Notes under the pieces: model-generated
Told to the model about the DNA's origin: nothing
Databases searched by the model: none
What the model saw: only the letters and a program-made list of their open reading frames with translations
In this document: one piece after another, positions 19,304 to 35,665 of the stretch
How the letters are laid out: each line of letters starts with the position of its first letter
Numbering within the stretch: the first letter of the stretch is position 1
Position numbers and translations under genes: made by a program
Assembly (NCBI GenBank): GCA_025057155.1
Contig: JANWYD010000010.1
Location: forward strand, 62,001-126,000
Length of the DNA stretch: 64,000 bases
Source of the DNA: Chloroflexaceae bacterium
GTDB taxonomy: Bacteria > Chloroflexota > Chloroflexia > Chloroflexales > Chloroflexaceae
Reading direction: 5' to 3'

Positions 19304-20485
19304 TCATGTGAGCGACCGTTCCAGCGTCGCGCGGTAGTATTGTTCGACGCCCTGTTTGAGCAGCACCGCCGGATAGCCGGTAACCGGCAGGCCCAGGGGG
19401 TTGCCCACGGCATAGTGATGGCCGAGTGACACCAGTTCACCCAGCACCAGCGGTTCGTAGGTGCGCGGAGGCCGGCCCTCCACTTCGGCGAGCAGCGTCT
19501 CGGCGAGATGCGCGCCCTGGCGCATCGCGAAACTGGCCGTTGCTGGCACGGTGTCGCCATTATAGCCCATCGGAATGGCAGCGCAGTCGCCGGCAGCGAA
19601 GATCAACGCCTGATCGCGCACGCGCAGGTAGCGGTCTACCAGCACGCGTCCCGCGGCATCAACCGGCAACCCCGAAGCGCGCAGAAGGGGAGGCCCCTGA
19701 ATCCCGCCAGCCCAGACGATGGTCCCGGCGCGGAGGACGCGATTCCCGGCCAGGCGCAGGAGGTGGGGCTCCACTGCCTCGACGATCGTGTTCAGGTAGA
19801 CGCTGACCCCCTGTTCATCGAGGATGCGCTCGGCGGTGCGGGTGGCCCATTCGCCAAACTGGCTCAGGAGGAGCGACGTGCGTTCGACGAGGGCGATGCG
19901 CACCTCGCGGCGCGGCGCGCCGGTCTGGACGCAGAGATCGTCAACCCACTCGGCCAGTTCGCCGGCAAACTGGCAGCCGGTATAACCACCGCCAACAATG
20001 GCAGTGGTGAGGAGGAGGCGCTGTTCGCGGGGATCCCCGCTTTGCGCGGCGGCCTCGAACCGGGCTACGATATGGTCGCGGAGGCGCAGCGCGTGCTGGA
20101 AGGTGTGCAGAGGAAGGCTGTGCTCGCGCGCGCCAGGCACGTTGCCATAGGCTGTTTCCGCACCCAGGGCGATCACCAGGCGGTTGTAGCTCAGGACGCG
20201 ACCATCCTCGAAATGAACAGTTCGCTGCACGGGCGCGATTTCGCGCACCGTGCCCTGCACGAAACTGATGGTGTGATTCTGCAGCAGGGTCTTCAGGTCG
20301 TAGATTGCCGCTTCCGGAGGCATGGCCGCCGCTGCAACGCGATGGATCACCTGGATCAACTGGTGGTAGCTATGTTGGTCAACCAGGGTGACCTGATCGG
20401 AATGACCACGCTCACGCAGCAGGCGGTCAAGATCGAGAGCGGCGCGAAGGCCAGCATAGCCGGCGCCCAGAATAACGATATGCAT
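19304..20485 (-). CDS. ndh: Type II NADH dehydrogenase / FAD-dependent oxidoreductase
   Basis: A 393-residue flavoprotein. The N-terminal FAD dinucleotide fold is IVILGAGYAGLRAALDL. A second nucleotide-binding fold is TTAIVGGGYTGCQFAGELAEW. The FAD-contacting GDCAAIPMG lies near residue 310. NDH-2 oxidises NADH at the membrane face and reduces quinone without proton pumping. A C-terminal hydrophobic/amphipathic part (HHYAVGNPLGLPVTGYPAVLLKQ) is typical for membrane attachment. Start ATG 20485; the frame is open 50 codons further up but that stretch lacks family features. Sulfide:quinone reductase is unlikely, as the catalytic Cys pair is absent. Confidence 0.88.
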   Translation of the reverse strand: MHIVILGAGYAGLRAALDLDRLLRERGHSDQVTLVDQHSYHQLIQVIHRVAAAAMPPEAAIYDLKTLLQNHTISFVQGTVREIAPVQRTVHFEDGRVLSYNRLVIALGAETAYGNVPGAREHSLPLHTFQHALRLRDHIVARFEAAAQSGDPREQRLLLTTAIVGGGYTGCQFAGELAEWVDDLCVQTGAPRREVRIALVERTSLLLSQFGEWATRTAERILDEQGVSVYLNTIVEAVEPHLLRLAGNRVLRAGTIVWAGGIQGPPLLRASGLPVDAAGRVLVDRYLRVRDQALIFAAGDCAAIPMGYNGDTVPATASFAMRQGAHLAETLLAEVEGRPPRTYEPLVLGELVSLGHHYAVGNPLGLPVTGYPAVLLKQGVEQYYRATLERSLT

Positions 20486-20766
20486 AGGTCTGCCCAGCGG
20501 CTGAAAAACGTTCAGTGGTATCCATCTCGTTTTTAGGATACCACGCTTTTCGCAAGCGGAATCAAAAAAACCGCCCTGCTGACGCTGCGTAGCCGTCTCC
20601 GGGGCGCCATAGCGAGGGGGAGCGCGCACCTGCAAGACGAAGAAACGCAGGAACCACCCTCAGTGGCGCCAGACCGGCATCATGCCGGCGACTCCACCGT
20701 GCGGTTCCTACGCTTGCTTGCTTCGACTCGCGCGCTCCCTCTTCCGCCTCTGTCCGAGGGCGCCCT

Positions 20767-21216
20767 CTATGCGGAGGGAGTTTGCGGTGGTCGTTCGACC
20801 CACTCGTCCACCTTCGCGGCGGCGCGCTCGACCTGATCGGCGGCGCGGCCAGCAGCGCGACCCACGCTGGCGCCGAACTCGTCCGCGGCGCGGGCCAGGC
20901 GCTCGGTGAAGGCGCGGGCGCGCTCAGTGAGTTGTTGCGGGCTGGGCAGACTCGGCGCGGACGCAGTCCCAGCGAAGAGATCATCAACCACTCGCTCCGA
21001 CACTGCGGTCAATTCCTTGGGGAGCGCGACGGCGGCGAGAGCAAATTCAGCCATTGCGCGCCGGGCGCGCACCCGTGAGTTCTTCGGCAGCAGAATTAAC
21101 GGGATCGCCGCGATCGACAGGCCCACGCGGGTGAGCCCGCCAACCAGCACGGCGGTGAGTTCAAACAGACCCTCTCGTTCCGTGCGGGTAATGCTGGTGG
21201 TTCCGGTGTCGCTCAT
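20767..21216 (-). CDS. Small membrane-associated protein, paralogue of the next gene, beside bchG
   Basis: A 149-residue protein starting MSDTGTTSITRTEREGLFE, with AAGGAG before ATG 21216. A hydrophobic stretch (about 20-45) ends LILLPKNSRVRARRAMAE. The second half is an Ala-rich amphipathic helix (EFGASVGRAAGRAADQVERA). Its core aligns by eye with the neighbour at 21332-21652 (GGLTRVGLSIAAIPLILLP against GGIFRLGFSLIMLPLGLLP). Function unknown. Position suggests a chlorosome or pigment-assembly role. The 281-bp gap 20486-20766 upstream of the NADH dehydrogenase holds nothing I recognise. Confidence 0.7.
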   Translation of the reverse strand: MSDTGTTSITRTEREGLFELTAVLVGGLTRVGLSIAAIPLILLPKNSRVRARRAMAEFALAAVALPKELTAVSERVVDDLFAGTASAPSLPSPQQLTERARAFTERLARAADEFGASVGRAAGRAADQVERAAAKVDEWVERPPQTPSA

Positions 21217-21331
21217 AGAAGTTCTCCTTAATGCTGGTGCGATACCGTATCGCGCCGGTGGCGCCTGGCGGTTGGCCGACCATCCTCGTGTTCCGAGGCG
21301 TCCGGCGCCGCCAGGTTGTGCTAACAGGCTC

Positions 21332-21652
21332 CTAGTTTGCCGACACCTCGTCCTTTGGCGCCTTCGTGTGGCTTGCCCCCTGCGGCGGGATTTCGGCGGC
21401 CCACGCCTCGATCGCCTGGCCCGCGGTCTCGGCGAAGTCGCGCGGGAGCGTTGCGAAGGCATACATGAGTTCCCTGGTCGCGTTCCGCATGTGCGTGCGT
21501 GTTTCGATGGGCAGAAGCCCCAGGGGGAGCATAATGAGCGAGAAGCCCAGACGGAAGATCCCCCCGCCAAACTCCACCACCGACTCAACCAGGCTGTCGC
21601 TTCTGCGCGCGGGCAGCGTCCGCACCCGCACCTCACCTGTGGTTTCCGTCAT
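21332..21652 (-). CDS. Small membrane-associated protein, paralogue of the downstream gene, beside bchG
   Basis: A 106-residue protein. A hydrophobic segment (about 28-48, GGGIFRLGFSLIMLPLGLLP) is followed by a basic/amphipathic helix (TRTHMRNATRELMYAFATLP) and a charged tail. It shares the GG-[IL]-x-R-[VL]-G-[FL]-S core, the LLP turn, and an LP-[RK]-[DE] motif with the 149-residue product of the next gene. Duplication is the simplest explanation. Start ATG 21652, 91 bp after the bchG stop. No known family recognised. Confidence 0.7.
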   Translation of the reverse strand: MTETTGEVRVRTLPARRSDSLVESVVEFGGGIFRLGFSLIMLPLGLLPIETRTHMRNATRELMYAFATLPRDFAETAGQAIEAWAAEIPPQGASHTKAPKDEVSAN

Positions 21653-21743: not shown

Positions 21744-22694
21744 CTATCCAAAATAGCCGCCCACCATAAGCGCTGACACGACCTGAATGAGCACCACAAA
21801 CGGATTACTGGTCACCAGATAGCGCAAATAGTTCTTCTGGTTCGGCTCACGATACAACTGAACCTGGTTGCGAATTGGCGCGACAATTGCAAGCAGAATA
21901 AACGCCGCCACCCAGAAATAGCCCCAGATGAACGCCAGCGCCATGAGGAGCATCTGGGAGAGATTAATGGTCAGGAAGGCTATAATCAGCGTCTTATGCA
22001 CCCCAATAACCACCGGCAATGACTGTAACCCGTGCAGCCGGTCGCCCTCAACGCTCTTGATGTCATTCAGAAAGAGCATGCCCGAAGCTATCGATCCATT
22101 GATCCAGGCAACAATCACGCTCTGCCAGGTTAGCGGCGCAAAGATCAGATGGCCGACCAGCCAGCTCATACTGACATAGCCCAGCCCGACTGCGGGGGGG
22201 CCGAGAAAAAAGTGCTTCTTGAGCTTGACCGGAGGCATGCTGTAGAGCACCGATAGAATGATGCCCAGCACCGCCAGGATCGTGATCAGCGCGCTCCCGA
22301 AAATCAGCGATACCAGAAACGTCGCCGCTCCCAGCACGATCCAGTTCAGGCGCGCTTCGTTGAGCGTGACCAGTCCGGCTGGAATTGGTCTTCCCGGATC
22401 ATTGATCGCGTCAATGTCGCGGTCGAAGTAATCGTTAATGCTCTGACTAAAACCGGTGCCCAGCGGGCCGCACATCAGCGCCCCCAGCATTGCCATTGCC
22501 CAGTCGCGCCCGCTCGTCCACTGGAAGCCGATGTCTTGCCCCGAAGCGAGCGCTCCGAAAAGGGTGACAATCGCAGGCGAGATCCACGTCACCGGATCGG
22601 CTAGTTCGATGTGCGCGCGGATCTTTTTGCCCAGCGAGACCTGCTTTTCAGAGGTTGTGATCATTGATGTGTCAATGCTCTCTGTGACGTCCAA
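21744..22694 (-). CDS. bchG: (Bacterio)chlorophyll synthase, UbiA family
   Basis: A 316-residue polytopic prenyltransferase that esterifies (bacterio)chlorophyllide with a long-chain alcohol in the membrane. The first Asp-rich motif is NDYFDRDIDAINDPGRPIPAG (from residue 87); the second is NDIKSVEGDRLHG (about 205). These follow the ChlG/BchG/BchK pattern, and the protein has about nine membrane helices. Whether it is BchG (BChl a) or BchK (BChl c) cannot be settled by eye, so the symbol is tentative. Start TTG 22694 one base after the bchU stop; ATG 22664 is an alternative that drops ten residues. Probably translationally coupled to bchU. Confidence 0.87.
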   Translation of the reverse strand: MDVTESIDTSMITTSEKQVSLGKKIRAHIELADPVTWISPAIVTLFGALASGQDIGFQWTSGRDWAMAMLGALMCGPLGTGFSQSINDYFDRDIDAINDPGRPIPAGLVTLNEARLNWIVLGAATFLVSLIFGSALITILAVLGIILSVLYSMPPVKLKKHFFLGPPAVGLGYVSMSWLVGHLIFAPLTWQSVIVAWINGSIASGMLFLNDIKSVEGDRLHGLQSLPVVIGVHKTLIIAFLTINLSQMLLMALAFIWGYFWVAAFILLAIVAPIRNQVQLYREPNQKNYLRYLVTSNPFVVLIQVVSALMVGGYFG

Positions 22695-22695
22695 A

Positions 22696-23763
22696 CTACA
22701 TCTTCACCGCTTGATACAACACATGGTCGTATGCTTCATCGAAGCTGATCTCGCCAAAGCCCAGTTCTCGCAGCAAGTCGGGATAGATTGTATGCTCCTT
22801 GAAGTCCAGCACCGAAAAATCCATCCCGATGCTGCACAGGTAGTGGGTCAGGTAGTCATAATTCGGGCGCTGCGGGTTGCTGATGTCCATATCCAGGATA
22901 ACGACGCGACCGCCGACGGGAAGGGCGTCATAGGCCTTCTTCAGCAGCATTGCCGAGAACTGGCGGTTCATCGGGTAGAGAATGCGGGCGAAGAGTACGG
23001 CGTCACCCTCCGGATAGGGTTCGCGGTACATGTCCACCGCCACGGGCGTGACCCGCTCGCTCAGGCCACGGGCGGCCATGTTCTCCCGTACCAGGTCCAG
23101 CGCGCTGGGCAGGTTCAGCAGCGTGACGCGCAGGTCGGGATATTTGTCGCACAAAGCCGCCGCGATGTCGCCAATCCCCCCTCCCACGTCAATCAAGTGG
23201 CGGACGCCCTCCAGCCGGGCCTTGTCGCGCAGCAACTTCTGCACGAAGTGAATGTTGGAGCGGTGGATGGTTTCGTAGAAGACGCTGTCCTCACGCGTGC
23301 GCGGCGGATGCGGCACCTGGCTGGTAAAATCCAACTTGCCGCGGGTCACATCGGCGAGGTTGCCGAAGAAGCTCTGCACCAGATCGGCCATGAAGCCTAC
23401 GAATGGCACCATGGTCATGTTGCGATGGTGTTCGGGATCGGTGAAGAACTGCTCGGCGAAGGGCGTCAGGCGCCAGTTGTCGTCGGCGTTCTGTGCCAGG
23501 CCAATCTGTTGCATTGCGATCAACAGGCGTTTAAGCCGCGCTGGCACGCTGCCGGTAATTTCGGCAAGGGCGGCAACGGTCTGGGGGCCGGCGGCCATGG
23601 CCTCGAACAGGCCCAGTTCCGAGGCGGCTTTCAGTACGAAGAAATCCACCGCACCCTTGAAAACCATCTCGTATGCCCGCTCCACATGTCGTGCGAGCTC
23701 CTCATCGTCGTGCATACAGCGGCAATCAGGGAAACAGCGAAACTGCGCCTGCGAACTGGTCAT
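22696..23763 (-). CDS. bchU: Bacteriochlorophyllide c/d C-20 methyltransferase BchU
   Basis: A 355-residue SAM-dependent enzyme that methylates C-20 of the chlorin ring, turning BChl d into BChl c precursors. It follows the Chlorobaculum BchU sequence closely by memory: ELVFKG-type start (YEMVFKGAVDF), TGSVPARLKRLL, VPHPPRTREDS, FYETIHRSNIHF, SAM loop LIDVGGGIGDIAAAL, and the end RKYDHLL-like AYDHVLYQAV. An O-methyltransferase-fold relative such as CrtF is less likely. Start ATG 23763 has AAGGG nine bases upstream. It is followed directly by bchG. Confidence 0.92.
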   Translation of the reverse strand: MTSSQAQFRCFPDCRCMHDDEELARHVERAYEMVFKGAVDFFVLKAASELGLFEAMAAGPQTVAALAEITGSVPARLKRLLIAMQQIGLAQNADDNWRLTPFAEQFFTDPEHHRNMTMVPFVGFMADLVQSFFGNLADVTRGKLDFTSQVPHPPRTREDSVFYETIHRSNIHFVQKLLRDKARLEGVRHLIDVGGGIGDIAAALCDKYPDLRVTLLNLPSALDLVRENMAARGLSERVTPVAVDMYREPYPEGDAVLFARILYPMNRQFSAMLLKKAYDALPVGGRVVILDMDISNPQRPNYDYLTHYLCSIGMDFSVLDFKEHTIYPDLLRELGFGEISFDEAYDHVLYQAVKM

Positions 23764-23943
23764 GACCATCGGCCCTTTTGCTAAACGACCACAGGACGGG
23801 TCAGCGTCGGAACTACCGTGTCTCAAAGCCTGCCCGGACTGCGCCGGGGCGCTATGCCGCCCATGCGCCACAGGGGGCGCGATACCCGCCAATCGGCATT
23901 ATCGGATTCAGGAGTCGTCCGGCCCTGTATCCTCCGCCACGCC

Positions 23944-25632: not shown

Positions 25633-26688
25633 TTAGCCCTGCTTGCTGGTCTCGTCTGCGGCTTTTTTAGCAGCCTGGGCGGCCTTTTCCGCGGCCTGGG
25701 CAGCCTTTTCTCCAGTCTTCTCCACGGCCTGGGCGGCCTGCTCGGCCGCTCTGGCGGCGCTCTCGGCGGTCTTCTCCGCAGCCTGGGCAGCCTTCTCTCC
25801 AGCCTGCTCGCCCGCTCTGGCAGCGGTCTTCTCAGCCGCCTGGGCCGCGCTCGCGACGGCAGGGGTCGCGGTGCTGGTCGCCGGGGAAGGCGGCGCGCTT
25901 GATGGCGGCGGCGGCGTATAGACCTGCGCGGCCTTCTTTGTCTCGTCGCTGTCGTTAGTGGTGGTCACCCGGATGCGCCGGGGTTGATCGCGTCCGCCGT
26001 TGCCGCCTTCGATGCCGCGGCCGCGCCCGCCTAGCACGGCGTCGGTCAGTTCGCGGGCCATATGGAAGAGTTCCTCGGTCTGGAAGCGGGTCCAGTAGCT
26101 ATAGAATTTCCAGACGTCGGTGAAGGTGGTACGGACCTCGCGGGTGAACTGCTCCAGGCCCTGGGGGGGCAGGGCGCCACGAATGTAGGAGCGGATCAGG
26201 TAGCCGATCGGCTGCACCACTCCTCCAACTGCAGGCAACGGCGCGCCCGGAGGACTGGTTTCAGGACGTGGCGCCGGGGGTGGAGGAGCGGATGGCTCGT
26301 ATGAACCCGACGCGGCAAACGCCCGGTAGGCGCCTGGCTCGCCGGGCGGGGTATAAGTCGGTGTAGATGGGGTGTAAGTGGGTCTGGCCGGAGTGTAACC
26401 GGGTTGCGGCGCATAGCCGGGGGTGGCGGCGGGGCCGTAGCCGGGCGCGGGGGCGCCGCTGGAGCGGGGGGTGGCGGCGGGGCCGTAGCCGGGCGCGGGG
26501 GCGCCGCTGGAGCGGGGGGTGGCGGCGCCGTAGGCCAGTGCCGGGCGTGCCGGTGGCGGCGCAAGCGGGACGCTGACATCAGCGCCCGGCCCATAGTCGG
26601 GCAGCTCTTCGTCGAGGTTCAACCATTTGCGGACGAAGTCGGGCAGCCAACTGTATGAGCCGCTCGGAGAACCATACTTGTCGGCCAT
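25633..26688 (-). CDS. Low-complexity protein of the chlorosome cluster (candidate chlorosome envelope protein)
   Basis: A 351-residue modular protein. Residues 8-30 (SGSYSWLPDFVRKWLNLDEE) are compact. About 40-150 is Pro/Tyr/Ala-rich, with two exact 16-residue repeats of ATPRSSGAPAPGYGPA type and further PGYTP-like units. About 155-215 is a folded-looking helical region (YIRGALPPQGLEQFTREVRT, FYSYWTRFQTEELFHMAREL). Then PRRIRVTTTND, and 275-351 is an Ala/Lys/Glu amphipathic repeat (EKAAQAAEKTAE and variants) like apolipoprotein, LEA or phasin helices. Chloroflexus chlorosomes contain CsmM, N, O, P and Y proteins; this may be one of them, but I cannot assign which. Confidence 0.7.
   Translation of the reverse strand: MADKYGSPSGSYSWLPDFVRKWLNLDEELPDYGPGADVSVPLAPPPARPALAYGAATPRSSGAPAPGYGPAATPRSSGAPAPGYGPAATPGYAPQPGYTPARPTYTPSTPTYTPPGEPGAYRAFAASGSYEPSAPPPPAPRPETSPPGAPLPAVGGVVQPIGYLIRSYIRGALPPQGLEQFTREVRTTFTDVWKFYSYWTRFQTEELFHMARELTDAVLGGRGRGIEGGNGGRDQPRRIRVTTTNDSDETKKAAQVYTPPPPSSAPPSPATSTATPAVASAAQAAEKTAARAGEQAGEKAAQAAEKTAESAARAAEQAAQAVEKTGEKAAQAAEKAAQAAKKAADETSKQG
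26422..26517. repeat. 48-bp perfect tandem repeat inside the low-complexity gene
   Basis: Two identical 48-bp units (26422-26469 and 26470-26517), with a partial third unit after them. Length is a multiple of three, so copy changes alter the protein by 16 residues without frameshift. Likely length-polymorphic between strains. Confidence 0.85.
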
Positions 26689-27651: not shown

Positions 27652-28620
27652 CTAACGCGCTCCACGCAAGAAGAGCCTCATGATCTGGATGACCTGTTCG
27701 GGAAGCTCGAACAGGATCAGGTGTCCGCAGCGGGGCACCTCAAGGTACTGGCCGCTTGGCGCCAGTTGGATCAACTTGCGCCCGCCCGATGGGCGCATAA
27801 TCGGGTCCCCTGCACCAGCGACGAGCAGGATGGGCCGGCGCACGCTGGCGATCTGGTCTGCCACCGCCTCCAGCACCTCCCGGCGCGCCAGTTCCCGTGC
27901 CGAGACGCGCACCGCCTCCGGGTCGCAGAAGCGCAGGCTCAGGGTGGCCAGTTTGACATCGCTGACCGGAGCGGTATTCTTCGACAGTACGGCCAGGGCA
28001 TAGAGGTAGGGGATCCACCACAGGCCCCGCCGCTCGATCGGGCGCAATATCCGGTTGAAGACCGTATCGAGCGTCCAGGGGGTCAGCGCTGAGGCGAACT
28101 TATTGTACTGGAAAAGGGCGAAATTGAAGAAGGCCAGGGAGCGCACCTGCGCCGGAAAGTGCGCCGCGTAATGCAGGGCCACGAAGGACCCCAGCGAGAA
28201 GGCGGCAATGTGGTGCGGCGGCAGATCCAGCGTCTCAGTCAGCGCCTTGAGATCGGCGCTGAAACCGGCCACGGTGTAGTCGCGGTTGGGATCGCTATCG
28301 GAGAAGCCGTGGCCCTTCAGATCGTAGGCGATCACACGGTAACCTGCCTGGGCAAGCGGATCGATGATGTGGTGCCACCAGTAGGAGGAGCAATCCCAGC
28401 CATGGATGAGCATCAGCGGTTCGCCATCGGCCGGTCCGACGTCCATGTAATGATGGGTCACCCCGCGCACGTCAACGAAACGCGCCCGCTCCAGCAGCCG
28501 GAGTTCGCCTTCCAGACGCTTCCGCTCGCCTGCGCTGAGCTTGCCGGCAAGTTTTGTCTCCACCTCGGCTTTGTAGGTGGCGTACTTGGCGGTAGGGGCC
28601 ACGTGTGACGTTACGGTCAT
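27652..28620 (-). CDS. Alpha/beta-hydrolase fold protein (BchO-like possibility)
   Basis: A 322-residue protein. An N-terminal helical stretch (about 1-48) precedes the core: HHYMDVGPADGEPLMLIHGW (oxyanion), nucleophile elbow AFSLGS (Ser), candidate Asp in GAGDPIMRPSGG and His in CGHLILFE. A proton-transfer-independent esterase or a BchO-type Mg-chelatase accessory protein are both possible. The genomic setting favours a role in pigment metabolism, but sequence alone does not decide. ATG 28620; 21 bp to the next gene. Confidence 0.75.
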   Translation of the reverse strand: MTVTSHVAPTAKYATYKAEVETKLAGKLSAGERKRLEGELRLLERARFVDVRGVTHHYMDVGPADGEPLMLIHGWDCSSYWWHHIIDPLAQAGYRVIAYDLKGHGFSDSDPNRDYTVAGFSADLKALTETLDLPPHHIAAFSLGSFVALHYAAHFPAQVRSLAFFNFALFQYNKFASALTPWTLDTVFNRILRPIERRGLWWIPYLYALAVLSKNTAPVSDVKLATLSLRFCDPEAVRVSARELARREVLEAVADQIASVRRPILLVAGAGDPIMRPSGGRKLIQLAPSGQYLEVPRCGHLILFELPEQVIQIMRLFLRGAR

Positions 28621-28672: not shown

Positions 28673-29779
28673 TCACTCCACCCAGAGCCGGAGAACCTCG
28701 CCTTCCACTCGCGCGCGCAGGCGGCCTCCTTCGGCGATGCCCGGCAACAGGATATGCCGGCGCTGCTCGCCCAGCCGCACCACCACTTCCTCGCTCACCA
28801 GCGCCAGGTCGAGGCTCTTGGGGTCCATAAACGGAATGTAGAGGCGCACTTCCCGTTCACCTACGGGCGGGCGGGAGGGCGCGGTTGGGCTGTAGATGTC
28901 ACCATCGCGATAGAGCGCCGCGCCGCGCAGCGCCCATGTATCGCGGTCAGCGGGACGGGTGGGCAGCGGCCCTACCCGCAGATGCGGACGCACATCGCCG
29001 GTTTCGGGCGAGAACTCACGCCGCGAAGTTTCATCCACCTCGCTCAGTTGTCCGGCGACCACCAGTTCGTCCATCGCCAGACCGTGGAAGCCCAGCGCCA
29101 TGAGCGCCTGGCGCACGGCTGGCAGGTGCAGTTCCTCGGGAGTGACAACCATACGCACGCGCGTGCCGGTGACGCCGTCGAAGCGGGCGCGGTGCTCCTC
29201 CAGGTTCACCCGCAGATCCTGGAGCGGGGCCAGTGCGCTCGGAGCGAGCAACGTGGCGGGGATCAGCGCCATCTCCTGTGACAGCCGCGAACGCCCCGGG
29301 CCGCGGTCAAGCCCGAAGACCAGCCGGAGCAGCCAGCGCAGGCTGTCGGGCAGACCCATCGAGCGGATGAGCGTATCGGGGGTTGGGCCGTCAAAGATGA
29401 GCAGGTCGAAGCGTCCCGTTTGCCGGGCCCGTTCGGCCACCAGCAGCGCGGCGGTGGCGTCCATGCCGGCGAAGGCGGGCAGTTCTTCGGAGCCGATCTC
29501 GCGCAGACGGTTGACGAAATTGCCTCGCAGGGTGCTGCGCACCTCTTCCCAGCGGTTGCCGATCTCCTCGATAGGATTGATCTCCATCGCCGCCAGGTGC
29601 GGTTCAAGTTCGAGGGGCCGTGAACCGAGGCTCTGTCCAAGCAGCGCACCGACCAGGTGCCCGGGGCCAACCGAAGCCAGCAACACGCGCGCGCCGCGGC
29701 GCGCGGCGTGGCAGGCCGTGGCGAGCGCTGCGGCGCTCTGCAAAAGGTTGTTATACGACGTAAACACCAGAATGCGCAT
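28673..29779 (-). CDS. ArsA/Get3-like protein lacking the P-loop
   Basis: A 368-residue relative of the ArsA ATPases upstream. It keeps the frame of the fold: ILVFTSYNNLLQSAAALATA at the P-loop site, FDGPTPDTLIRSMGLPDSLRW matching the switch II segment, and the C-terminal HSP20-like domain (VRLYIPFMDPKSLDLALVSE). The catalytic GKGGxGKT loop has no counterpart, since no GK[ST] is present. It is probably a non-hydrolysing partner or regulator of the two intact ArsA proteins. Start ATG 29779. The family call is from aligned blocks by eye. Confidence 0.75.
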   Translation of the reverse strand: MRILVFTSYNNLLQSAAALATACHAARRGARVLLASVGPGHLVGALLGQSLGSRPLELEPHLAAMEINPIEEIGNRWEEVRSTLRGNFVNRLREIGSEELPAFAGMDATAALLVAERARQTGRFDLLIFDGPTPDTLIRSMGLPDSLRWLLRLVFGLDRGPGRSRLSQEMALIPATLLAPSALAPLQDLRVNLEEHRARFDGVTGTRVRMVVTPEELHLPAVRQALMALGFHGLAMDELVVAGQLSEVDETSRREFSPETGDVRPHLRVGPLPTRPADRDTWALRGAALYRDGDIYSPTAPSRPPVGEREVRLYIPFMDPKSLDLALVSEEVVVRLGEQRRHILLPGIAEGGRLRARVEGEVLRLWVE

Positions 29780-29971: not shown

Positions 29972-31213
29972 TCAGGCGGCCTCGACCCGTACTTCGTCGG
30001 ACTCGCCTACGAGCGGTTGGATGCATTCCTCAACCGTTTCGCGGAACTCCAGGCGCAGCACCCCGTCTTCATAGCGATGCTCGCCCAGGATGCAGTTGTA
30101 GAGAATGCGGGGCAGCGCGATAGTGCGCTGAATGCGCCCGACCGAAAGCGATAGATCCGGACCGCTGCGGGTCAGTTCGACCGCTTCTTCTTCATCGAGG
30201 AAGGGCAGGCGCAGACACAGTTCGTACTGTCCGCGCTCCCCCTCTTCGTTCCACTGCTCCAGCCAGATCGGGCGCTCGTCGTAGAGCACCGCCCCGGGGT
30301 CCGCCGTTCCAAACGTGGCGCGCCCGATCGCCTCGAGAGCCTTGACGCCGATCGGCTCGCCTTCCTGCAATACCGTGCGAAAGATCGGCGTCGGGGCGAA
30401 ACTGGCGTCAATCTCGCGCAGGTAACCCTGCTGAAGGCGCACCCAGTAGTCGAAGTAGGGGCCGAGATCGGCGCGCCGGGGGAGAATCTTATTGACCATC
30501 ACCGCGTCTACCAGCATGCCATAGAGGTTAAGGAAGGTGTAGGCGCGGCGCGTCTCCAGCAGCGGCAGCCGTTCCGGGTTGAGCACCAGACGCAGCGAGA
30601 TCTCCGGGCTGAGCAGGAAATTGGCCAGTTGCTCCATCTTTTCCAGCAGGGCGCCCACCTCCTGGAAGAAGCGATCATCAGGCAAGTCGCGTTTGAAGGT
30701 GCGCGCGACATTGGCCAGGCCACGGTACACGCGGAAGAACTTCTTGCCGGCGTCACCGCCGATGATCATCTCCGGATAGGCCAGCAGGCGCAGAGTATTC
30801 CCGGTGGGAGCGGTATCGAGCACAATCGCGTCCCAGCGGCCGCTCTGCGCTTCCTGCATTACCCGTTGCAGGGCGAGAATCTCATCGAGACCAGGTTGAT
30901 TGGCCAGTTCCGCCGCCGTGGAGCGATCAATGCCCCGGTTGGCGTAGGTGGAGGCGACGAACTGCTGGAAGCCTCCCAGGTTATGGCGCCACTCGTAGAT
31001 TGTATCCACTTCCAGGCCATACAGCCCGGGGATAATCGGCGTGGGGCGGTCGCGGCTGATGGTTGTGCCCAGGGCGTCGGCCAGGGAATGGGCCGGATCG
31101 CTGGAGAGCACGAGCGTCCGGCGACCCATACGAGCCAGCAGCGTCGCCGTCGCCGCCGAGATGGTAGTCTTCCCGGTGCCGCCTTTCCCCGAGTAAATGA
31201 TAACACGCGTCAT
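29972..31213 (-). CDS. ArsA/Get3-family ATPase (chlorosome cluster, copy 2)
   Basis: A 413-residue ATPase with a deviant Walker A IYSGKGGTGKTTISAAT at the start, SDPAHSLADALG (switch I area), DTAPTGNTLRLL (switch II), then MVNKILPRR, and a C-terminal HSP20-like beta domain (YELCLRLPFLDEEEAVEL). Bacterial ArsA/Get3-like proteins bind or target hydrophobic clients. No arsB or arsR is nearby, so arsenite efflux is unlikely. With two further family members and csmA in the same operon, a role in inserting or assembling chlorosome proteins is inferred. Confidence 0.88.
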   Translation of the reverse strand: MTRVIIYSGKGGTGKTTISAATATLLARMGRRTLVLSSDPAHSLADALGTTISRDRPTPIIPGLYGLEVDTIYEWRHNLGGFQQFVASTYANRGIDRSTAAELANQPGLDEILALQRVMQEAQSGRWDAIVLDTAPTGNTLRLLAYPEMIIGGDAGKKFFRVYRGLANVARTFKRDLPDDRFFQEVGALLEKMEQLANFLLSPEISLRLVLNPERLPLLETRRAYTFLNLYGMLVDAVMVNKILPRRADLGPYFDYWVRLQQGYLREIDASFAPTPIFRTVLQEGEPIGVKALEAIGRATFGTADPGAVLYDERPIWLEQWNEEGERGQYELCLRLPFLDEEEAVELTRSGPDLSLSVGRIQRTIALPRILYNCILGEHRYEDGVLRLEFRETVEECIQPLVGESDEVRVEAA

Positions 31214-31306: not shown

Positions 31307-32797
31307 CTACTCTTCGTACTTTCCGTTGGCGCTCACGCCGGTTGTTTCCGTATCCCGTTCAACCCGGCTCACGGTGATCCGGCGCACGGGCGCCGCACGC
31401 GGCGCTTCGGTTGCCGGCGGCGCTTCGGTTGTCAGTGGCGCGGAGGCCAGGTCGTCCACCGGTGGCATAGCGACCTGCTCAGCCGCTGGCGGCGCGACGG
31501 CGGCCGGCTCGTCCACCGGCGGCGCCGGGTCAGACGGGGGTGCGGGCGAGTCAACACGCCGCACGCTGATGCTGCGACGCACCGGTTCGACGCGAGTCGG
31601 GGCCTCGGCGGGCGGTGCGGCGGCAGCCGGTTGCCGTGGCGGAGCGGACTCGATCTCAACCGGCGTGCTGGTGGACGCGCGGCGCACTGTTGCGCGCACC
31701 TGAATCCGCCGGGCCTGTCCGTTCTCGCTTTGAGGCTCATCAAGCGGTTCGGCGAACCGCACCGCTGCGCGAACCACCGGTCCGACAGGGGCCAGCGGGC
31801 CGCCCTGGGCTTCCTGTTGCGCCGCCACGTGGTAGAGGCCGCGCATGGCATTGCGGCGCACCCGTGGATCCTGCAGCCCGTTCACTAGTTCGGTCGCTCC
31901 GCTCACCGCGTCGCTGGCCCGACGCAGCCCGCGGGCCAGTTTGCGCGGCCCCTCAAGCACCAGACGCAGCGAGCGGCTGACATCATACATGCTAGGCTGT
32001 TCGGGCAGGGTCGGCAGGGAGCCGGCCGGCCCGGGCTGAGCGGTATACGTTCCACCGCTCCCGGCCGCTGCGGTACGGCGCTGGCTCTCGTAGGAGGCGA
32101 TCAGATTGCCCGGCGTGGTTGGGGGCGTCAGGCTGGCGGCCGACTCCTTGTTCGCCCAAAACCGCCACCAGCGCGGGCGGCGCGTGCCGTTCGTCTCCGT
32201 GCCCGACTGGGGCGCCGCGGGCGGCAGCGGCTCAGGGGTGGTAAAGAACGGTTGCAGGGGCTGGCGCTCGACAACCGGGAAGCGCTCGACAAAGGCTCGC
32301 ACCAGTTCGTCACCCGCAAGCCCGGCCACCACCTGATCGCCCACCCAGCGCACCATCTCGGCCAGGACGCTGACGTCGTCAAACGGCATGTAATCCAGCG
32401 TGTTGATCACCAGCCGTTCACCTGAGCCCGGCTCCTCGGCTGAACCGTTAATCACCACGCGACGGGTGCGCGGGGCCACCGGCGGCAGGCGGAAGGCCAG
32501 GGATACCCGACCGTGCCAGGGGTCCCAGGTTTCGGCACTGACAATATCAACGTCCTTCCATTCGAACCCATCTACCGTATCGTTGAAAAACCCGCGCGCC
32601 CAGGTAATTACCCGACGGTCGGTGAGAGCGATGTAATCCGAAAGGGCCAGGCCGCCGACGCGGCGGCGCTGCTCGTCCAGCAAAACGCCGTCGAAGAGCG
32701 CGAGGAGCGTCTCGCCCTCCTCGAGCAGCCCGCGGTAACGCAGCTCTTCAACGCTGGCCGCATTGACATTGACGCCGAGATACGGGCGAGTGCTCAT
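31307..32797 (-). CDS. CsmM/CsmN-type candidate chlorosome protein, long form
   Basis: A 496-residue protein. Residues 18-150 form a PH-like module (LEEGETLLALFDGVLLDE, SDYIALTDRRVITWARG) shared with the next gene upstream. A middle helical part includes LGRPRKLARGLRRASDAVSG-like text. From about 350 it is Pro/Ala-rich with repeats of the form R-[RS]-I-x-V (RRIQVRATV, RRSISVRRV, RRITVSRV). Chloroflexus CsmM and CsmN are known paralogous envelope proteins but are smaller (18 and 11 kDa), so the name is a position-based suggestion. RBS AGGGA within the end of the preceding gene, nine bases away. Confidence 0.65.
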   Translation of the reverse strand: MSTRPYLGVNVNAASVEELRYRGLLEEGETLLALFDGVLLDEQRRRVGGLALSDYIALTDRRVITWARGFFNDTVDGFEWKDVDIVSAETWDPWHGRVSLAFRLPPVAPRTRRVVINGSAEEPGSGERLVINTLDYMPFDDVSVLAEMVRWVGDQVVAGLAGDELVRAFVERFPVVERQPLQPFFTTPEPLPPAAPQSGTETNGTRRPRWWRFWANKESAASLTPPTTPGNLIASYESQRRTAAAGSGGTYTAQPGPAGSLPTLPEQPSMYDVSRSLRLVLEGPRKLARGLRRASDAVSGATELVNGLQDPRVRRNAMRGLYHVAAQQEAQGGPLAPVGPVVRAAVRFAEPLDEPQSENGQARRIQVRATVRRASTSTPVEIESAPPRQPAAAAPPAEAPTRVEPVRRSISVRRVDSPAPPSDPAPPVDEPAAVAPPAAEQVAMPPVDDLASAPLTTEAPPATEAPRAAPVRRITVSRVERDTETTGVSANGKYEE

Positions 32798-32806
32798 AGT
32801 CGTTCC

Positions 32807-34030
32807 CTACTCTCGAGTTGTTACTGGCTCCACCCGCCCGGCGGCGGACGGGCGGCGCTCATCAGACGCTAAACGATCCGTGTGGCCGACGTCGCCGGCG
32901 CCGCTCCGGGCGACGGGAAAGGCGGGCGCCGCCGCGCCCCGGCGGCGCAGGGGAATATCGCGCCGGTCAGGGAATGGAGCGGGCGGGCTCGGGGCCGCGC
33001 GCGGGGGCTCGCTCTGCGGGGCGGGCGGCGTGGCCGACGCTGGCGCGGCCTCGGCGGAAGCGGGCGCGCGGCGGCGCAGAGGGATCTCGTGGTAACTGCG
33101 ACCTCCCGGCGGCTGAGGCGCGGCGGGCCGTTCAGAGCCTTCGCGCGCCGCGGACGCGTCGGCCGGCGCCTCAGCGGCGACCGTCGCCGTCGAGGCCGGA
33201 GGCGCGCCCGTCTGGCGATTGAGCAGACTCATCGCCATCTGCTGCGCCACCGGGTTGTTCGACACCGTCATAACCAGTTCATTGATGGCGCGAACCGCAT
33301 CGGCGAGATCACGCAGACTGCCATTACTCAGCACACTCAGATCGAAGGGCAGATCAGCTTCGCGCAATGATCGGCGCAGCGTATCCCACGCCGAGCGGGC
33401 GAGACGGCCCGCAGCGTAGACCTGGCCGGGGGGAAGGCTTGCCGGGTCCTGATAAAAGGCGGGGAGGGGCGCGCCGGGCGCGCTCGCGGCGGCGCCAACC
33501 CAGCGGTAGGGCGGTTCGCCGGGCCGCGGCCCGTCTGCGTGTCCAAAAATCTGCTCACTCAGCGCCGCGATCACTTCCGGGCCGGCGTCGCGCGCATCAA
33601 AGCCTGCCTCGAGCATGCTGCGGGCTGTTTCGCTGGCGGTGCGCAGCAGTTTCAGCCCGGCCTGCAGATCGGCAAGGGGCAGCAGGGTCAGCGTAAAGCG
33701 CTGATCCTCCTCGCCGGGGGCGGCGAAGCGCAGTTGCAACTGGGCGTGGAGCGGATCAAGCCCGCTCCCCTGCGCCTCGACCAGTTCAGCGAGCGGGAAG
33801 GCGCAGCAGAGGTGCTGCCCGTAGTCTCGCGCCCAGAGCACCACCCGCAGGCTGGTGATCAGGCAGTAATCGTGCAACGTCGGCCCGCTCAGGCGCCGAC
33901 CGTTCTCATCGAGAAGGACGCCGTCAAGAGCGACGAGCACGTGCTCATCGTGCTCGATCACGTTGAGCATCTCGAGTTCGGCCAGATGGGCCGGAACAAT
34001 CGTATGGCTATGGTAGAGCAGACTGATCAT
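32807..34030 (-). CDS. CsmM/CsmN-type candidate chlorosome protein, shorter paralogue
   Basis: A 407-residue paralogue of the downstream protein. The PH-like N-terminus reads VIEHDEHVLVALDGVLLDEN, LHDYCLITSLRVVLWARD. A central helical region follows (LRDLADAVRAINELVMTVS, NNPVAQQMAMSLLNRQTG), then a Pro/Ala/Arg-rich end with HEIPLRRRAP and RDIPLRRRGA motifs that mirror the RRIxV motifs of its neighbour. Lies 75 bp after csmA and nine bases before its paralogue. ATG 34030 chosen over an in-frame TTG four codons upstream; neither has a clear Shine-Dalgarno. Confidence 0.65.
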   Translation of the reverse strand: MISLLYHSHTIVPAHLAELEMLNVIEHDEHVLVALDGVLLDENGRRLSGPTLHDYCLITSLRVVLWARDYGQHLCCAFPLAELVEAQGSGLDPLHAQLQLRFAAPGEEDQRFTLTLLPLADLQAGLKLLRTASETARSMLEAGFDARDAGPEVIAALSEQIFGHADGPRPGEPPYRWVGAAASAPGAPLPAFYQDPASLPPGQVYAAGRLARSAWDTLRRSLREADLPFDLSVLSNGSLRDLADAVRAINELVMTVSNNPVAQQMAMSLLNRQTGAPPASTATVAAEAPADASAAREGSERPAAPQPPGGRSYHEIPLRRRAPASAEAAPASATPPAPQSEPPRAAPSPPAPFPDRRDIPLRRRGAAAPAFPVARSGAGDVGHTDRLASDERRPSAAGRVEPVTTRE

Positions 34031-34105
34031 AGTGAGGCGCAAGGGATCTGGATACAGGATACCCGCTCGCGCGGCATACCCTGCATCCAGGCCCCTACCC
34101 TCCTG

Positions 34106-34351
34106 CTACCGGTTGAAGCGCGAACGAATGCGCTTCGGGCGGAAGCTGCCGACCTCGCGAGCGGTGTAGCCACTCTCGCCGCTGCCGCTGCGGGCAATGC
34201 CCGGATAGGCATTGCGGTTGATGTTCTCGACCGCGGCCGAGGTCGCCTGCAGCGCGTTCGACACCCATTGCCAGTGGCCCTGGAACATGATGTCGCCGAT
34301 CTGAGCGACCTGCGCCGACGACTCCGAGAACCAGCCTCGTGTCACGGCCAT
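34106..34351 (-). CDS. csmA: Chlorosome baseplate BChl a-binding protein CsmA (precursor)
   Basis: An 81-residue precursor. Residues 4-51 (TRGWFSESSAQVAQIGDIMF, QGHWQWVSNALQA, NINRNAYPG) match the Chloroflexus CsmA amphipathic baseplate helix. His26 is the presumed BChl a ligand, next to Trp28. The Ser/Gly/Arg-rich C-terminal part (about 52-81) corresponds to the extension removed in mature CsmA. It forms the paracrystalline baseplate that passes energy from the chlorosome to the membrane. Excellent Shine-Dalgarno AAGGAGGT eight bases before ATG 34351, in line with high expression. Lies 114 bp after an ArsA gene. Confidence 0.96.
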   Translation of the reverse strand: MAVTRGWFSESSAQVAQIGDIMFQGHWQWVSNALQATSAAVENINRNAYPGIARSGSGESGYTAREVGSFRPKRIRSRFNR

Positions 34352-34465: not shown

Positions 34466-35665
34466 CTACGATCGCACCCCGTTTGCCGCATAGAACGGGA
34501 CGATCAGCCAGTCGCCGTCCATTTCGGCCTGGCCGGCCTCCTGGCCTGCCAGGCTGGTAGGCAGCGTGATCACCCGTCGAAAATCGCCGATCTGGATCAC
34601 CAGTTCGTCGCCGTTCTGGAACAGATCGAGTTGATTGACATCGGCAAAGGGCAATTTCAGCTTCACCCGGTAGCTGCCGTCGTGCAGCTTGCTGATATCC
34701 ATCGGCGCCTCGCGGTAAAGCACCGCGGTGGGATCGCTGTCGCCATAGATGTCTCCCCCCATCACGCGCAGCTTCTCCAGCCCCACCACCTCTTCGGCGT
34801 AGTAGGGCACCCGCCGGATGGGCAGGGGTACGAACGACTGCTCAACGTCCTGGAGGTAGCGTTGCTGGATCTCCTTCCAGTGGTTCAGATAGCCGCTGTC
34901 CTTCTCCACGGGCAGGATCTTGTTCACGATGACCATGTCAACGGTCATGCCATACATTGACAGGTATGTCAGGGCCCGCTGGCTTTCCTTGATGACCATC
35001 TTCTCCGGGTTCATCACCAGACGGATCGAGGTCTCGAGGGGGTTCGACAGCGTTTCGGTAACGCCCTCCATCTGCCGGAAGAGATCGTCTACCGCCTCGT
35101 AGACTTCCGACGGCGCGACCATCTTGTTCAGGCCGGGGGTGATCCGGCTCATCGGGCGGATCAGGGGCTTGATGAGATACTTCTCCGCGCCCCGCAGCAT
35201 CCCTATCGCCCACTTGAAGCTCTCGGGGGCCGACAGCAGCCGCAGCGTCTCGCCTGTGGGCGCGCAGTCGATGACCAGGAGATCGTAGTCGCCCGCATCC
35301 TTGTGCTTCTTGATCCTGATGAGCGGGAAGGCCTCTTCCATGCCCGGCAGAATGCTCATCTCATCGGCCAGGATGCCCTCGACCCCCTGTTCGGCCATCA
35401 ACTGCGAGAAGTGCTGCCGCACGATCCCCCAGTTGGCCTCAATGTCGTGATAAATGCTGACTTCCAGAGCGTCGAGGGTCGGGGTGATCCGTACCGGATC
35501 CGGCCCCAGCGGTCCTTCCAGATCCAGTGAGTCGGCCAGGCTGTGCGCCGGATCGGTGCTCATCACAAGCGTGCGCAGGCCCATATCGGCGGCGCGCAGG
35601 GCAGTGGCTGCAGCGACGCTCGTCTTGCCGACGCCGCCTTTGCCGGTGAAAATCAGGGTACGCAT
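34466..35665 (-). CDS. ArsA/Get3-family ATPase (chlorosome cluster, copy 1, intact)
   Basis: A 399-residue ATPase with LIFTGKGGVGKTSVAAATAL (residues 5-24), STDPAHSLADSL, DCAPTGETLRLLSAPESFKW and MVIVNKILP: all elements of the ArsA/Get3 nucleotide site. A C-terminal HSP20-like domain (KLKLPFADVNQLDLFQNGDE) covers about 320-395. Single ATPase domain, so dimeric function is expected. It is the first gene of the chlorosome operon, directly before csmA. The client is not known; handling of amphipathic chlorosome proteins is an inference. Confidence 0.9.
   Translation of the reverse strand: MRTLIFTGKGGVGKTSVAAATALRAADMGLRTLVMSTDPAHSLADSLDLEGPLGPDPVRITPTLDALEVSIYHDIEANWGIVRQHFSQLMAEQGVEGILADEMSILPGMEEAFPLIRIKKHKDAGDYDLLVIDCAPTGETLRLLSAPESFKWAIGMLRGAEKYLIKPLIRPMSRITPGLNKMVAPSEVYEAVDDLFRQMEGVTETLSNPLETSIRLVMNPEKMVIKESQRALTYLSMYGMTVDMVIVNKILPVEKDSGYLNHWKEIQQRYLQDVEQSFVPLPIRRVPYYAEEVVGLEKLRVMGGDIYGDSDPTAVLYREAPMDISKLHDGSYRVKLKLPFADVNQLDLFQNGDELVIQIGDFRRVITLPTSLAGQEAGQAEMDGDWLIVPFYAANGVRS

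Follow-up and report, generated by a model that had tools for sequence, protein, structure and literature searches.

What work could a Get3-type protein do in a phototrophic bacterium once its ATP site has been lost? Get3 is the textbook example of a protein that uses ATP to capture membrane proteins and let them go. Within the DNA analysed here, a stretch of 64,000 nucleotides from a Chloroflexaceae bacterium (hereafter the window), a protein designated A is encoded among chlorosome genes together with two homologues, ArsA1 and ArsA2. From the sequence, the original prediction had described A as a third ArsA/Get3 homologue that lost its nucleotide-binding loop next to two ATPases with intact loops, while a switch II-like segment and an HSP20-like C-terminal domain were kept, and had proposed that the three form a hetero-oligomeric complex for chlorosome proteins. 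The features of the locus are collected in Table 1.

Table 1. Features of protein A and of the surrounding gene cluster (window coordinates)
Feature	Coordinates	Strand	Remarks
bacteriochlorophyll synthase, BchK by position	21744..22694	-	TIGR01476 E 7.6e-107; position as in the available part of PMC3150298
BchU, bacteriochlorophyllide C-20 methyltransferase	22696..23892	-	TIGR02716 E 1.5e-148
alpha/beta hydrolase	27652..28620	-	directly downstream of A; best NCBIfam match BchO, under cut-off
protein A (P0001, 368 aa + stop)	28673..29779	-	P-loop-less, Get3d-like, C-terminal alpha-crystallin domain
alpha-crystallin (ArsA_HSP20) domain, A residues 308-368	28676..28858	-	best-conserved part of A
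A/B signature RWxxRxxxGxDRGxGxS, residues 148-164	29288..29338	-	conserved in A and B; mostly missing from active paralogues
switch II of A, residues 130-137 DGPTPDTL	29369..29392	-	Asp130 retained
former switch I of A, residues 36-41 SVGPGH	29657..29674	-	catalytic Asp replaced by Gly38
former P-loop of A, residues 6-15 FTSYNNLLQS	29735..29764	-	
ArsA2, Get3/ArsA-family ATPase	29972..31213	-	GKGGTGKT intact; directly upstream of A
conserved chlorosome-cluster ORF	31307..32797	-	distant paralogue of 32807-34042
conserved chlorosome-cluster ORF	32807..34042	-	N-terminal PH-like domain predicted
csmA, chlorosome baseplate protein	34106..34351	-	Pfam Bac_chlorC E 9.3e-26
ArsA1, Get3/ArsA-family ATPase	34466..35665	-	GKGGVGKT intact

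The sequence features named in the original prediction were all recovered: the altered loop of A, the intact loops of both neighbouring ATPases, the switch II-like segment at residues 130-149 (DGPTPDTLIRSMGLPDSLRW) and the HSP20-like domain, which is matched by Pfam ArsA_HSP20 at residues 308-364 (E 3.5e-09). The body of the protein is matched by Pfam ArsA_ATPase at residues 15-250 (E 1.1e-21), both matches being above the curated cut-offs. The SYNNLLQS of A aligns to the GKGGVGKT of ArsA1 without a gap and at equal length, indicating that the loop was changed by substitution and not by insertion or deletion; Gln14 occupies the position of the Walker lysine, and Tyr9 that of the intradimeric lysine. 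A frameshift or sequencing error was excluded, since the loop length is unchanged and four genomes of the same genus also lack the lysines. A contains a single cysteine, C23, and consequently no CXXC zinc motif.

Orthologues of A, 48-94% identical, were gathered from relatives, and the motifs were read in an alignment of 134 of the 136 detected proteins; the two not aligned were the broken A of genome G020 and an ArsA1 that was short or identical. Among 29 distinct A sequences, neither P-loop lysine is retained in any: the intradimeric position is occupied by H (14), Y (7), F (4), Q (2), N (1) or E (1), and the Walker position by Q (25) or R (4). The switch I Asp is replaced by Gly throughout, Asp130 of switch II is retained in 27, and the A-loop Asn is found in only eight, with the following K and P aligned to gaps in all 29. 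In contrast, both lysines and the switch I Asp are present in all 83 sequences of ArsA1 to ArsA4 (ArsA3 and ArsA4 being further paralogues). Counted by genome, no lysine was found in the loop of any of the 31 A-positive family genomes read, out of 33; thirty were read directly and G330 through locus L105, which matches in place and length, the two outside the count being G020, with its broken N-terminus, and G283. The loss is thus conserved among relatives, as the original prediction had suggested should be looked for, and an orthologue with an intact P-loop, the sign of local decay, was not encountered among those read.

A is under purifying selection. By the Nei-Gojobori method, dN/dS was 0.082-0.128 for three pairs from the genus of the window and 0.019-0.074 for four Chloroflexus pairs; ArsA1 and ArsA2 are more constrained, at 0.029-0.075. 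Some of the dS values are above 1 and therefore rough. Recent local decay of A was ruled out by these values together with the orthologue-wide absence of the lysines. A is no longer most constrained where ATP was once bound but in the alpha-crystallin domain and the signature segment: in blocks of 20 residues over 15 genomes, identity of A is 57% in the first block and 76% and 82% in the last two, versus 97% in the first block of both ArsA1 and ArsA2 and 63% and 45%, respectively, in their last block. A set of residues is specific to A and its paralogue B, described below. L137 (Thr in active paralogues), P174 and P101 are present in 51 of 51 A/B sequences and in 0 of 83 active paralogues, D158 in 51 of 51 versus 2 of 83, R152 in 50 versus 2, R190 in 48 versus 0, and H342 in 47 versus 0. 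Several of these fall in or near the signature segment, C-terminal to switch II, in a region which, as placed by homology, would belong to the client-binding domain of the Get3 fold. A shortening of the client-binding stretch in A was considered and rejected, the interval P144-R209 spanning 65-69 residues in A, 68-69 in ArsA1, 62 in ArsA2 and 66 in ArsA4; the mean hydropathy of this stretch did not distinguish A from the paralogues compared.

The fold of A is predicted with good confidence to be Get3d-like with an alpha-crystallin domain, and not an unrelated one, an outcome that would have spoken against a Get3 homologue. The AlphaFold2 model (55 sequences) has a pLDDT of 87.8 and a pTM of 0.87, falling to a pLDDT of about 76 at residues 151-160 and about 69 at residues 161-170, around the signature; its alignment contained active paralogues, which biases the model in favour of the family fold, whereas the matches by sequence are independent of it. 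In Foldseek searches with this model, NosGet3d and AtGet3d ranked at the top, and VIA-align superposed it on NosGet3d with Z 27.2 and rmsd 3.8 over 330 residues, the alpha-crystallin domain included, followed by archaeal Get3 and AtGet3d, each at Z 21.5. By sequence, too, the closest solved structure is NosGet3d (All4481; 3igf/8egk), a member of the Get3 form associated with photosynthesis, with E 8.4e-22 for the single sequence and 4.8e-23 for the family profile. NosGet3d is also the best solved relative of B, and for ArsA1 and ArsA2 archaeal Get3 ranks first.

As to class, the top NCBIfam match of A is NF050088 (Get3d) at 100.2 bits, under the curated cut-off of 325. TIGR04291 (ArsA) gives 26.4 bits against an equivalog cut-off of 650, A having a single ATPase domain and not a tandem, and TIGR00345 (GET3/TRC40) gives 69.2 bits against a subfamily cut-off of 135, A being devoid of Walker A. 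Get3d of Nostoc and Arabidopsis is described, in the available part of PMC10248533, as closed without nucleotide, with a hydrophobic chamber, slow ATP hydrolysis, a degraded switch I, no A-loop, and binding of tail-anchored clients independent of the alpha-crystallin domain. A resembles Get3d (3igf, 8egk; AtGet3d 8elf) in its predicted alpha-crystallin-bearing fold, the absence of CXXC, an A-loop mostly gone, an altered switch I and phototrophic hosts. Get3d, however, retains the intradimeric lysine and a Walker A Lys or Arg and hydrolyses ATP according to the same part of that paper, whereas A lacks both lysines and the glycine loop. Judged by sequence, A would best be called a Get3d-like pseudo-ATPase, a variant that departs from Get3d at the Walker A lysine. 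Green nonsulfur bacteria are said there to retain the Walker lysine, a statement that holds for ArsA1 and ArsA2 and not for A or B, which qualify it. ArsA1 and ArsA2 are homologous to A over the full length, with the same domain order and in the same operon-like cluster, but are only 22-25% identical to it and have intact catalytic motifs in every copy compared. The arsenical pump ATPase ArsA (TIGR04291, PDB 1f48) has the ArsA_ATPase domain in common with A, which is single-domain and without the ATP site. The plasmid records gave one match to A, from Nonomuraea, at 28% identity.

A second paralogue without a P-loop, overlooked in the original prediction, is encoded in the same genome outside the window. 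This protein, B (G000:C16:49926-51020), is 39% identical to A, has TGPAGIAAL as its loop and carries both Pfam domains. No lysine is retained in any of 19 B sequences and three f4 forms (f1, f2 and f4 are family codes in the genome sample); B aligns with gaps at the loop, but its N-termini show none there. A combined A and B profile, run over a phylum sample of 301 genomes with at most six candidates scored per genome, exceeded 360 bits in all 19 f1 genomes of the sample and in the f4 genome G030, and the next matches, active paralogues included, reached at most 240 bits. In the phylogenetic tree, A, B and the f4 forms make up one clade, supported at 96/91 with NosGet3d included. As a check on long-branch attraction between degenerate sequences, the tree was rebuilt with NosGet3d and the alignment positions of the P-loop, switches and A-loop removed; the clade was then supported at 100/100, though the program issued a warning about the joining of long branches. 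From this single clade, the simplest history is probably that ATP use was lost once, anciently, and that duplication to A and B followed. The A/B side joins NosGet3d at 98/98, but strict descent of A from Get3d is uncertain because NosGet3d is one partial sequence, the sole cyanobacterial or plant member, on a branch of length 3.01.

The chlorosome context that had been assigned to the pseudo-ATPase was borne out by the presence of csmA, bchU and bchK in the same cluster. The family-wide gene order, with small variations, is ArsA1, csmA, two unannotated ORFs, ArsA2, A, alpha/beta hydrolase, two ORFs, one or two hydrolases, bchU and bchK. Among 30 A-bearing loci (L104 being the same place as L042), ArsA2 directly precedes A in 29 and the alpha/beta hydrolase directly follows it in 28, the remaining two being L039, which stops there, and L053, an exception; the order ArsA2-A-hydrolase was found in 28. 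The gap between ArsA2 and A is 1-192 bp in all 15 loci measured, both genes pointing in the same direction, and ArsA2 and A are therefore probably co-produced.

For C. aurantiacus, the available part of PMC3150298 lists csmA as Caur_0126, bchU as 0137, bchK as 0138, csmM as 0139 and csmN as 0140. By counting, the A orthologue of this species would be Caur_0130, an unsure number because the same count comes out one off at the published bchU; no paper naming Caur_0130 was found in the open-access literature. The available part of PMC2963123 has four ArsA entries for C. aurantiacus, two of which appear, from protein lengths and numbering, to be ArsA1 and ArsA2; the gene number after that of ArsA2 is not among the four. 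A Chloroflexus ArsA of the length of ArsA2 groups there with the ArsA of Chlorobi and Chloracidobacterium, and ArsA2 may be a chlorosome-specific Get3. In a check of 13 genomes, an ArsA2 orthologue above 500 bits was present in G000, G003, G006, G010, G020 and G304, and none was present in six csmA-less genomes with adequate assemblies or in G016, where the cluster is cut.

Several other genes of the cluster were noted in passing. For the ORF at 32807-34042, a PH-like fold is predicted over roughly the N-terminal 165 residues, with a pLDDT of about 90 and a best Foldseek E of 8.7e-05; the remainder is of low confidence. The ORF at 25633-26688 is Pro/Ala-rich, evolves fast, is highly variable between genera and has no Pfam or NCBIfam match. 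Past bchK are an ORF at the csmM/csmN position with a marginal apolipoprotein-like match (20767-21636) and a pyridine nucleotide-disulphide oxidoreductase (19304-20635).

The distribution was surveyed in 41 family genomes of 18 genera, with A called at 345 bits or more. A was detected in 33 genomes and csmA likewise in 33, both in 30, A only in three (G003, G020, G021), csmA only in three (G006, G010, G016), and neither in five (G013, G017, G018, G326, G328). G003 and G020 are incomplete, with contigs ending within the cluster, and the contigs of G006 and G016 end at the place of A; G010 and G021 seem to be genuine exceptions. The G010 assembly (81% complete) has the whole cluster on one contig, with the hydrolase following ArsA2 directly. 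In G021 (91% complete) A is open and full-length, and ArsA1, csmA, ArsA2 and BchU were not found in the assembly. One flank of A in G021 carries a regulator-like gene 70% identical to the gene beside ArsA1 in G010, and the other a small ORF at the csmM/csmN position and further genes that come after bchK elsewhere. At this locus, L053 (G021:C263:22000-40000), the greater part of the chlorosome cluster has been deleted to either side of A, which makes it a useful natural experiment. Outside the family, in G304 (same class, probably Chlorohelix), csmA adjoins ArsA1 and an ArsA2 orthologue is present at 55% identity; profile and homologue searches detected neither A nor B there. Counterparts of the ORFs at 31307-32797 and 32807-34042 adjoin csmA in G304 too.

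Of the 41 family genomes, 34 carry B, as do three f4 genomes. The seven family genomes without B all carry A and the eight without A all carry B, so that one or the other is present in all 41; chance would leave about 1.4 genomes with neither, and the pattern is suggestive only. When 25 f1 genomes were checked for a type II reaction centre, 24 had one, the exception being G006 (88% complete). In f4, B is present in three of four genomes that have a reaction centre and absent from the one that has none; B was not detected in the f2 genome G028, which has a reaction centre.

Our leading interpretation, to which we give about an even chance, is that A works without ATP as a chaperone or carrier of the Get3d type, with antenna proteins or lipids as its cargo. 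A would form its own Get3-type homodimer, and this dimer would stay closed, as Get3d already is without nucleotide. Its hydrophobic chamber, its alpha-crystallin domain or both would shield amphipathic envelope proteins (CsmA, CsmM/CsmN) or lipids, and the cargo would be released on touching the membrane or the growing chlorosome and not through ATP hydrolysis, ATP-driven deliveries being left to the neighbouring ArsA1 and ArsA2. A would stand at the end of the Get3d road, with the body unchanged and the ATP site gone; its dimer state, clients and mode of release are our conjectures. Several points weigh against this interpretation. In the parts of the Get3-family literature covered, an ATP-free working cycle is without precedent, since NosGet3d and AtGet3d are still ATPases. 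A and the chlorosome are not strictly linked: csmA occurs without A in G010 and G304, and A without csmA in G021. The strict descent of A from Get3d is, as noted above, uncertain. Finally, the Arg at the Walker position of four of the 29 A sequences could still touch phosphate, NosGet3d also having Arg there.

The short, same-strand spacing of ArsA2 and A would also suit a pairing of A with ArsA2 or ArsA1 as a regulatory pseudo-subunit, tuning or blocking the ATPase or broadening the choice of clients, and a mixed Get3-like pair is on record for M. tuberculosis (Get3-like A and B, BagA/BagB, PDB 6bs3), co-crystallised and likened here by names and title. Mutual dependence of A and the active paralogues is, however, argued against by G021, which keeps A with neither ArsA found, and by G010 and G304, which hold ArsA1, ArsA2 and csmA without A. 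In addition, judging from the mechanism in the available part of PMC10248533, a dimer of A with an active partner would be deprived of the trans lysine for hydrolysis and could only inhibit. We consider such a pairing unlikely; of the original proposal, the conserved pseudo-ATPase in the chlorosome cluster stands, and the hetero-oligomer with the active paralogues is not supported. Equally unlikely in our estimation is that A is a component of chlorosome envelope or assembly in which the Get3 fold merely holds the alpha-crystallin domain or carries lipid or pigment, with no chaperone cycle. That the alpha-crystallin domain is the most constrained part of A is consistent with such a role, as is the lipid-like density in the crystal chamber of AtGet3d, whose head group is held by Arg (PMC10248533, available part); the arginines R148, R152, R190 and R197 are conserved in A and B and missing from most active paralogues. 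A is nevertheless not named among the chlorosome proteins of C. aurantiacus in the available parts of PMC3150298 and PMC9316378.

Slow decay of a paralogue that survives by accident in a crowded operon is very improbable. A does evolve faster than its neighbours, with a mean identity of 60% versus 84% for ArsA1 and 78% for ArsA2 and a dN/dS about twice theirs, and it is absent from G010 and split into two pieces in G020 (71% complete). But it is open in every other locus read, in 11 of 12 A-bearing genera (the G003 copy is cut by a contig end), its dN/dS is far below 1, new residues have become fixed in it, and it persists in G021 though its neighbours are gone. Just as hard to credit is a hidden NTPase that binds nucleotide through other residues: Asp130 is kept in 27 of 29 sequences, the Walker position is polar and NosGet3d, with Arg at that position, is an ATPase (PMC10248533, available part), but A has lost both lysines, the switch I Asp, the A-loop K and P and most glycines of the P-loop.

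Returning to the ATP-independent chaperone or carrier, a wider version of it that embraces both A and B is put forward tentatively and with some doubt. An ancestor of the phototrophic Chloroflexales may have dropped ATP in one Get3d-like lineage, A and B may capture and release hydrophobic clients free of nucleotide, with membrane, lipid or the alpha-crystallin domain acting as the gate, and after the split of this ATP-less lineage A may have become the chlorosome-cluster form and B the dispersed form.

No description of A or B was found in the open-access literature on Get3d, on chlorosome Get3/ArsA proteins and on pseudo-ATPases, as far as the available parts of these papers extend. A conserved branch of Get3 that has given up the ATP site and kept the fold and the alpha-crystallin domain would offer a natural test of which steps of the cycle require ATP. 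With A, a candidate chaperone is placed amid the chlorosome genes, which bears on the assembly of the antenna envelope; a motor-less version of a known chaperone probably does useful work beside the antenna genes.
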